Assembly (NCBI GenBank): GCA_018268035.1
Contig: JAFDXI010000161.1
Location: 1 to 64,000 of the forward strand
Reading direction: 5' to 3'
Source of the DNA: Bacteroidota bacterium
Lineage (GTDB): Bacteria > Bacteroidota > Bacteroidia > Chitinophagales > Chitinophagaceae
Length of the DNA: 64,000 nt
Shown piece after piece: positions 1 to 2,038 of this stretch (its first letter is position 1; every line of letters starts with the position of its first letter). The position numbers were made by a program, and so were the translations under genes. The notes beneath the pieces were generated by a model. That model had not been told where the DNA came from, did no database searches, and was given only the letters and a program-made list of their open reading frames with translations.

Positions 1-321
1 TCTTTCTTTTTTTTATTTTACCACCAAGACTCAAAGTTCACTAAGATTGTTGTTTCGCTTTAAGTATAATTTTTACGCTTTGTGACCTTCGTGACGTTGT
101 GGTAGAAAATCAAAACACAGTTTTTCTTTCCTTTTTTTTATTTTACCACCAAGACTCAAAGTTCACTAAGATTGTTGTTTCGCTTTAAGTATAATTTTTA
201 CGCTTTGTGACCTTCGTGACGTTGTGGTAAAAAATCAAAACACAGTTTTTCTTTTTTTTATTTTACCACTAAGACTCAAAGTTCACTAAGATTGTTGTTT
301 CGCTTTAAGAATAATTATTCA
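1..321. repeat. Left block of a ~120-bp tandem repeat (about 2.6 units)
   Basis: Two full units and one interrupted unit lie here in direct orientation. The landmark ACCACCAAGAC recurs at about 20, 145 and (as ACCACTAAGAC) 265, so the period is 120-125 bp. Each unit has two related arms facing each other: one built on ACCACCAAGACTCAAAG and, on the opposite strand, one built on ACCACAACGTCACGAAGG. A unit is therefore an imperfect long palindrome made of CACNAAG-like words. The third unit loses similarity at about 321, just before the GxxExxY gene. The array may continue beyond the left edge of the window. Confidence 0.9.
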
Positions 322-379
322 TCTTGTGTTACTCACTCCTCAATGGTACCGCTTCATTTATTTATTGTGTAGCATTCTT

Positions 380-772
380 TCAAATCACAAACCTTTTAAT
401 TCCATTTTTTATCAATGGTACATTAAAATTAATAAGGTACCCTAACTTTAATCCCATAAGCTTAAGGTGGCTAATAATTTGAGCATGCCAGACAGGGTTA
501 ATCTCAGTAACCGATTTTAATTCGCAAATAACTAATTCATCAACTAATACATCTGCGACAAAACCTTCAGTAAAAAATTTATCTTCATATCTAATGGGTA
601 TAGGAACCTGCCGGCCATTTGGAATCCCCTTTTTGTCTAACTCATAACAAAAACAAACCTCATAGACCTTTTCTAATAAACCAGGCCCCAATTCTTTATG
701 AACTTTGTATGCACAATCAACTATTTCTTTACCAAGGAACTCCTGATGCTGCATTGAAAAATTATTTGCCAT
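380..772 (-). CDS. GxxExxY protein, PD-(D/E)XK-like (PDDEXK_3 family)
   Basis: This 130-residue protein matches the GxxExxY family: the name-giving motif GLLEKVY is at residues 31-37. A nuclease-like core follows, with Asp74 in FVADVLVD and Glu84/Lys86 in CELKS, the D...ExK pattern of PD-(D/E)XK enzymes, then WHAQIISHLK with Gln98. Length is normal for the family (about 125) and no catalytic residue is missing, so the gene looks intact. The biological role of the family is not established; DNA or RNA cleavage is an inference from the fold. The start ATG (complement of 770-772) lies immediately next to repeat sequence, and the gene interrupts one repeat unit. Its 5' control region must therefore be repeat-derived. 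No partner gene is co-oriented within 150 bp. Confidence 0.9.
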   Translation of the reverse strand: MANNFSMQHQEFLGKEIVDCAYKVHKELGPGLLEKVYEVCFCYELDKKGIPNGRQVPIPIRYEDKFFTEGFVADVLVDELVICELKSVTEINPVWHAQIISHLKLMGLKLGYLINFNVPLIKNGIKRFVI

Positions 773-965
773 AAAAGTATTTTTACGCTTTGTGCCCTTC
801 GTGATTTTGAGGTAAAAAATATCAATACACAGTTTTTCTTTTTTTTATTTTAGTACTAAGATTCAAAGTTCACTAAGACTGTTGTTTCGATTTAATTATA
901 ATATTACGCTTTGTGACCTTCGTGACTTTGTGGTAAAAAATTAATACACTGTCTTTCTTTTTCCA
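773..965. repeat. Right block of the ~120-bp repeat (one half unit and one full unit)
   Basis: Repeat similarity resumes within a few bases of the GxxExxY start codon, at the point in the unit where it stopped on the left: AAGTAT..TTTACGCTTTGTG. One right half-unit (about 774-838) is followed by a more diverged full unit (about 840-965). The left remnant at 254-321 plus this right half would rebuild one unit. The distal end runs into the VWA gene. The unit's pyrimidine tract, read on the minus strand, supplies the last residues (KRKTVY) and the TAA stop of that protein. Confidence 0.88.
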
Positions 966-2038
966 CTTTCAAAATCACGAAAAATAAATGCTCCTAATTT
1001 ATCCAGCGATGCAAAGAAAGCTTTCCCATTATTTGTTTCTGTAAACTCTGTAATAAACCGTTGCAAATAGGGATCACTTGCAATCATAAATGTAGTGATA
1101 GGAATCTTTAATTTCTTGCACTGTGCTGCAAGATTTAAACAATGGCCTGTAATTTTCCTGTCAAGCCCAAATGCATTTTTATAATAACGGCCACCAATTT
1201 TTAAACAAGTTGGCTTACCATCAGTAATCATAAAAATTTGTTTATTGGGATTTTTTCTTCGTCTTAAAATATCCATTGCTAATTCAATACCTGCAACAGT
1301 ATTTGTATGATAAGGGCCCACCTGCAGATAGGGCAGGTCTTTAATTTCAACAGGCCAGGCATCGTTACCAAAGACCACAATATCGAGTGTATCTTTCGGG
1401 TACTTTGTAGTGATGAGTTCGCTCAATGCCATCGCCACTTTTTTAGCCGGCGTAATCCTGTCTTCACCATACAAAATCATGCTGTGTGAAATATCAATCA
1501 TCAAAACAGTAGAAGTCTGTGTTTTGAAATCTGTTTCCCTGATCTGCAAATCATCTTCATTCATCTGGAAGCTTTCAATGCCATGATTGATTTGTGCATT
1601 ACGGAGACTCTCAGTAAAATCAATTTGCTCCAACATATCACCAAAACGGAATGGTCTGTAATCAGGGCTTACTTCATCACCCTGACCAGGCTTATTGGTT
1701 GTATGATCGCCTTGCTTTGTTTTTTTAAGCTTTCCAAAAATTTCCTCCAGACTGTGTTTACGTATAGACTGTTCACTCTTGGCAGTGATCTGAATCGTAC
1801 CGGTTTCATTATTATCTTTTATATATCCATTACGTTTCAGGTCTTCAATAAAATCGCCCATACCATAATCATCATCTGTAAGCTGGTATTTTTTATCCAG
1901 TTCATTCATCCATTGCAATGCTTCAGCCACATCGCCATTGGTGTATGTCAAAAGCTGCAAGAACAAATCGAGCAGTTGCTCAAATTTGCTTTTACCATCA
2001 GCAGCGGGATCAAATTTTAAAAAACGATTTCCTATCAT
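941..2038 (-). CDS. VWA-domain protein (MIDAS metal-binding)
   Basis: This 365-residue protein has no visible signal peptide and is probably cytoplasmic. Residues 1-175 are charged and mostly helical. A von Willebrand A domain follows, with the MIDAS motif DISHS at 182-186 in the strand STVLMIDISHSM. A conserved Thr sits in HTNTVAG and the Asp loop is MITDGKPT. Such proteins usually work as adaptors for a MoxR or Mg-chelatase-like AAA ATPase, but no such ATPase is adjacent here, so the partner is unknown. The upstream co-oriented gene is a DUF3467 protein, 105 bp away. The stop codon and the last five or six residues come from the flanking repeat, which suggests the repeat landed in or replaced the original 3' end. 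Confidence 0.85.
   Translation of the reverse strand: MIGNRFLKFDPAADGKSKFEQLLDLFLQLLTYTNGDVAEALQWMNELDKKYQLTDDDYGMGDFIEDLKRNGYIKDNNETGTIQITAKSEQSIRKHSLEEIFGKLKKTKQGDHTTNKPGQGDEVSPDYRPFRFGDMLEQIDFTESLRNAQINHGIESFQMNEDDLQIRETDFKTQTSTVLMIDISHSMILYGEDRITPAKKVAMALSELITTKYPKDTLDIVVFGNDAWPVEIKDLPYLQVGPYHTNTVAGIELAMDILRRRKNPNKQIFMITDGKPTCLKIGGRYYKNAFGLDRKITGHCLNLAAQCKKLKIPITTFMIASDPYLQRFITEFTETNNGKAFFASLDKLGAFIFRDFESGKRKTVY

Follow-up and report, generated by a model that had tools for sequence, protein, structure and literature searches.

REP palindromes are hairpins with a GTAG foot, and integron attC arrays consist of palindromic repeats, each about 120 bp long and arranged in tandem, that enclose an ORF. 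The family of GxxExxY proteins (TIGR04256/PF13366) is annotated merely as a domain, and to our knowledge no function has been assigned to it. The intervening sequences (IVSs) of 23S rRNA genes are sporadically distributed and are suspected to be mobile; the IVS of Coxiella has a 28-bp stem that is cut by RNase III (PMC4990558). The TIGR02436 family (S23p/IVP, PF05635) is known from rRNA intervening sequences (PMC4990558) and is also found in CPR rRNA insertions (PMC11270868).

The DNA analysed here (the window) is a stretch of 64,000 nucleotides from a genome of Chitinophagaceae (Bacteroidota) that comprises 181 contigs and 4.47 Mb, and its first base is also the first base of contig C68. Positions 1–958 are occupied by a tandem array of a palindromic unit of ~120–125 bp, and a GxxExxY gene lies between the two parts of one unit (Table 1). 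The palindromic tandem repeat of about 120 bp proposed in an earlier sequence-only reading was confirmed by unit comparison, with units 98% (3–127 versus 128–252) and 88% (the diverged unit) identical to the reference. The end of the diverged unit overlaps the 3′ end of a gene for a VWA-domain protein. The split unit is broken in the AT-rich loop between its arms, where the halves share ~6 nt; since unit positions 1–72 are located to the left of the gene and 67–125 to its right, the halves rebuild one unit. By eye, a weak echo of the right arm can be followed after position 319, and the left side may therefore carry a complete but decayed unit.

Table 1. Coordinates of the repeat units and genes at the left end of the window
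Feature	Position	Strand or arms	Basis
Palindromic tandem unit, copy 1	3..127	no strand	Unit comparison; array goes on leftward on contig C132:68283-68503
Palindromic tandem unit, copy 2 (reference unit)	128..252	left arm 145-170, right arm 203-229	Arms read from sequence
Left part of split unit (unit positions 1-72)	248..319	left arm 265-290	94%, E 5e-26
GxxExxY gene, 130 aa, PD-(D/E)XK nuclease fold	380..772	-	Profile matches, conserved residues, AlphaFold2 model
Right part of split unit (unit positions 67-125)	779..839	right arm 788-814	89%, E 4e-15
Diverged complete unit	835..958	left arm 852-877, right arm 909-935	88%, E 1e-38
Flanking VWA-domain gene	941..2038	-	Domain scan and relatives' loci

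Two further units were found at the end of contig C132 (68283–68503), where they stop at the contig end. Because C68 starts and C132 ends in the same array, the array is longer than the window shows and is split by an assembly gap. A search of the contigs of this genome revealed no second array. The exact window unit was also sought in 100 relatives by nucleotide search, and of the 101 genomes searched only its own gave matches, since the letters of the repeat change faster than its architecture. An Rfam search of the locus returned nothing significant, and no rRNA match was found at positions 1–1200 of the window.

The product of the gene was compared with domain profiles and found to be a clear member by sequence of TIGR04256 (E 1.1e-39, 135 bits at a cut-off of 35) and of PF13366, PDDEXK_3 (E 4e-38, 131 bits at a cut-off of 22). 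The GxxExxY residues together with D74, E84 and K86, which the sequence-only reading had named, are indeed retained; they are conserved in 11 sequences of the window's family and in 75 sequences from many phyla, the invariance of GPGLLE in the latter set being partly a matter of choice because this stretch served as the selection peptide. Modeling using AlphaFold2 led to a confident structure (pLDDT 95.4), and the nearest folds in a Foldseek search, weak matches with a best E of 0.05, were lambda exonuclease, the Cas4-family protein SSO0001 and PspGI, all of them PD-(D/E)XK enzymes. Judged by residues and model, the protein has a predicted nuclease fold with an intact PD-(D/E)XK active site. 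A Pfam scan up to E 1 yielded PDDEXK_3 only and no Y1/HUH domain, a PDB sequence search gave no match and the PADLOC defence models gave none either. GxxExxY proteins are present in 94 of the 149 genomes of the window's family; among the phages searched no relative was found, and the plasmids searched contained seven distant ones. Truncated or stop-interrupted copies of the gene are common, for instance at locus L016 on contig C152 of the same genome and in several relatives, which suggests gene turnover.

The locus is similar to REP/RAYT systems in that a palindrome stands in inverted copies on both sides of the gene, gene-free palindromes are dispersed in the genomes of relatives and the letters are lineage-specific. 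This anatomy bears out one half of the comparison with RAYT transposases made in the sequence-only reading. The other half, the enzyme, does not hold: the GxxExxY protein is of the PD-(D/E)XK type (PF13366) with no Y1/HUH domain found, and its arms are runs of heptamers and not REP hairpins with a GTAG foot. The assignment of the window element to REP/RAYT was therefore rejected for want of a Y1 domain. With the 23S rRNA IVSs it shares a small ORF enclosed in terminal inverted repeats, but the protein fold is different, the neighbours of the element are protein genes and the arms gave no sign of a bias towards sense-RNA pairing; since it is not located in an rRNA gene, its assignment to this group was rejected too. 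Unlike integron attC arrays, elements of the window type carry cargo of almost one family, and their arms follow a different grammar.

At its end, contig C132 contains the start of an AAA-ATPase gene (named by resemblance) on the minus strand. In relatives such a gene directly follows the VWA gene, which makes C132 and C68 neighbours, so that the array and the GxxExxY gene fill the VWA–ATPase spacer. The window genome (G000) groups with Parafilimonas terrae, and in the two genes that were compared, VWA and GxxExxY, the same-genus genome G005 has the same sequence as the P. terrae record. The spacer contains array and gene in the window genome and in P. terrae, with different repeat letters, and neither repeats nor gene in the same-genus genomes G002, G003, G004 and G007. 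Thus the search for the repeat with and without the gene, suggested in the sequence-only reading, revealed both parts or neither at this site. In P. terrae, the closest relative, three complete units are followed by the GxxExxY gene and then by a lone right arm, so conservation does not extend to the exact position within the unit. The earlier claim that the gene sits exactly inside one unit stands insofar as the halves rebuild a unit in the window, but not as regards its exact position, which differs in P. terrae.

Between the window genome and P. terrae, the GxxExxY proteins are 67% identical and the VWA proteins 93%, and this points either to two insertions of related elements or to a single old one that changed fast and was lost several times. 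Synonymous sites of the GxxExxY gene are saturated, and its dN is 0.27 versus 0.04 for the VWA gene. At the empty sites the spacer is replaced rather than cleanly interrupted; in a comparison with insertion sequences (IS), arms are present at the filled site, and the only overlap is the ~6 nt shared by the unit halves. None of the insertions found showed a clear target duplication. In another genome of the family (G010, locus L182), the spacer after the VWA gene contains a different small gene pair, by eye antitoxin–toxin-like with a PIN-type protein.

In the window's family, the 200-nt flanks of 25 of 32 GxxExxY genes contained inverted arms that scored beyond the 95th percentile of controls from the neighbourhood. 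A wider set of 80 loci was then compiled from the nearest relatives with the peptide GPGL[LM]E, with no random draw from the family; 79 were analysable, from Bacteroidota, Chloroflexota, Planctomycetota, Verrucomicrobiota, Pseudomonadota and others. Of these 79 loci, 62 had inverted arms within 200 nt of the gene that exceeded the 95th percentile of 135 offset controls, and 53 surpassed the maximum of those controls (Mann–Whitney p 3e-23). Against 128 neighbouring genes, 53/79 loci were above the 95th percentile (p 1e-21). Detectable arms were absent from about a fifth of the sampled genes. The sequence-only reading had staked its case on the existence of other genomes with split repeats around GxxExxY genes, and split palindromes border most of the genes sampled.

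The arms usually consist of about three heptamers, typically CACnnAG, with spacers of 1–3 nt; the heptamers seen include CACAGAG, CACGAAG, CACAACG and CGCAAAG, and the arms often start with AACCAC or AACCGC. Their letters vary from element to element, but within an element both arms match, with a median match score of 18 for own pairs and 10 for arms swapped between loci. Protein identity was correlated with the sharing of arm 6-mers (Mantel r 0.26, 0/500 permutations), a correlation that joint inheritance alone could produce.

Starting from the repeat, the pattern ACCACRRAG-N(1-3)-CACRRAG-N(1-3)-CACRRAG and its CGC form were found in 35/247 and 44/395 genomes, and the reversed arm patterns were almost lacking. 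Among 173 seed arms from Bacteroidota, 80 belonged to gene-free palindromes and 73 were without a recognisable partner; the partner was 150–700 nt away in 15 cases and farther in 5. TIGR04256 accounted for 10 of the 11 distinct compact ORFs between arms 150–700 nt apart, window included, arms without a near partner having been fetched preferentially, which enriches for cargo but for no particular cargo. A GxxExxY gene was present in 19/20 genomes with these arms and in 27/40 same-class genomes that lack the exact pattern (Fisher p 0.02). A gene-free palindrome in the same heptamer style was seen in another Bacteroidota family directly after a gene that, by eye, resembles glutamate dehydrogenase (locus L063, ~1495–1530).

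The GxxExxY gene tree mixes phyla, with 25 changes where the minimum is 13 and shuffled trees give 34.7, and proteins from Ignavibacteria and Deltaproteobacteria (56–57% identity) are among those closest to the window protein. In two copy-rich genomes, the paralogues share ~35% identity and are flanked by heptamers that differ from copy to copy, so recent transposition bursts, which were sought in these two genomes, were not seen. Taken together with the mixing of phyla in the tree, this low identity is more easily explained by different elements that arrived horizontally than by bursts within a genome.

A similar arrangement was revealed for TIGR02436, whose four-helix-bundle fold is unrelated to GxxExxY: 25 of 34 of these genes lie between inverted arms. 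At loci L067–L096 the arms mostly consist of other heptamers, e.g., nnnTAAG, TTTTAAG/TTGTAAG or AGTATTT, and none of the 20 loci checked for rRNA location lay in rRNA.

With split palindromes found elsewhere, GxxExxY as nearly the sole compact cargo and orthologous sites holding both parts or neither, the idea that gene and repeat form one system is supported: the two look like one genetic unit, which is probably mobile. Our preferred reading, with a probability of roughly 0.55, is a composite repeat element in which a PD-(D/E)XK nuclease gene lies between inverted arms and which would be horizontally mobile, its protein recognising and cutting its own arms. This reading builds on the observed arrangement, its recurrence across phyla, the matched arms, the joint presence or absence at one orthologous site, the co-divergence of protein and arms and the dispersed gene-free forms. 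The nuclease would recognise the heptamers of its own arms, probably at the DNA level, and may nick or cut the arms; cutting and host repair could then help the element and its gene-free derivatives to move or rearrange. The gene-free palindromes of the same type would be shorter derivatives of the element, dispersed or in tandem arrays.

The same anatomy could also be read at the RNA level, as in the 23S rRNA intervening sequences, with arms that pair in the transcript, an insert that RNase III removes or trims and a protein that is a passenger or a maintenance factor. An ORF within terminal inverted repeats does match the Coxiella IVS (PMC4990558), and the IVS protein family TIGR02436 occurs in palindromes outside rRNA as well. 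Folding of a single unit gave a moderate sense RNA structure (z −1.9) and a DNA hairpin that is not unusually stable (z −0.6). However, arm mismatches showed no sense-strand excess of G·U over A·C (138 vs. 155, p 0.35), and the insertion is located in intergenic DNA between protein genes rather than in rRNA, which makes an RNA-level element unlikely, if the least so of the rivals. Given the missing G·U excess, the modest RNA fold and the unremarkable DNA fold, inverted arrays of protein-binding heptamers on DNA explain the arms no less well than a selected hairpin does.

At many loci the arms are only tens of nt away from the start and the stop of the gene, and the array fills an operon spacer; both would also suit regulatory sites (an operator, a terminator or an mRNA-stabilising hairpin) of an ordinary gene that does not move. 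Such flanks are rare at other genes, though, the same palindrome is scattered through many genomes in copies that lack a gene, and gene and array are jointly present or jointly absent; we regard regulation as somewhat more doubtful than the RNA-level account. Little weight is given to the view that the repeats are hot spots of recombination or insertion, with GxxExxY as one passenger cassette among several, in the manner of integron arrays. Palindromes that are arranged in tandem and enclose an ORF do resemble integron cassette arrays, and a different small gene pair occupies the same spacer in another genome of the family; but the cargo is almost exclusively GxxExxY (10/11 compact ORFs) and arm sequence co-varies with the protein. 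That an unrelated gene was inserted by chance into a local repeat is hardly credible: the exact window unit is unique to its own genome among the 101 searched, yet the arrangement recurs in many phyla, with p values of about 1e-21 to 1e-23, and this contradicts chance, as does the repeat-first survey.

In the open-access literature searched, no description of the pairing of palindromes with GxxExxY or TIGR02436 was found, and the novelty of the gene–repeat pairing is provisional. Beyond the composite element itself, we suggest tentatively, at somewhat less than even odds, that GxxExxY genes and their arms constitute an unrecognised class of selfish elements, a nuclease-based counterpart of REP/RAYT, with the IVS-protein elements as a parallel class. 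A PD-(D/E)XK enzyme that is specific for heptamers of its own would then move or copy itself and gene-free palindromes. The position of GxxExxY genes inside their own palindromic repeats provides a concrete substrate for tests of function. The TIGR02436 parallel may bear on how rRNA intervening sequences spread, and the pairing of gene and repeat would explain the widespread CACnnAG-type palindromes in environmental genomes.
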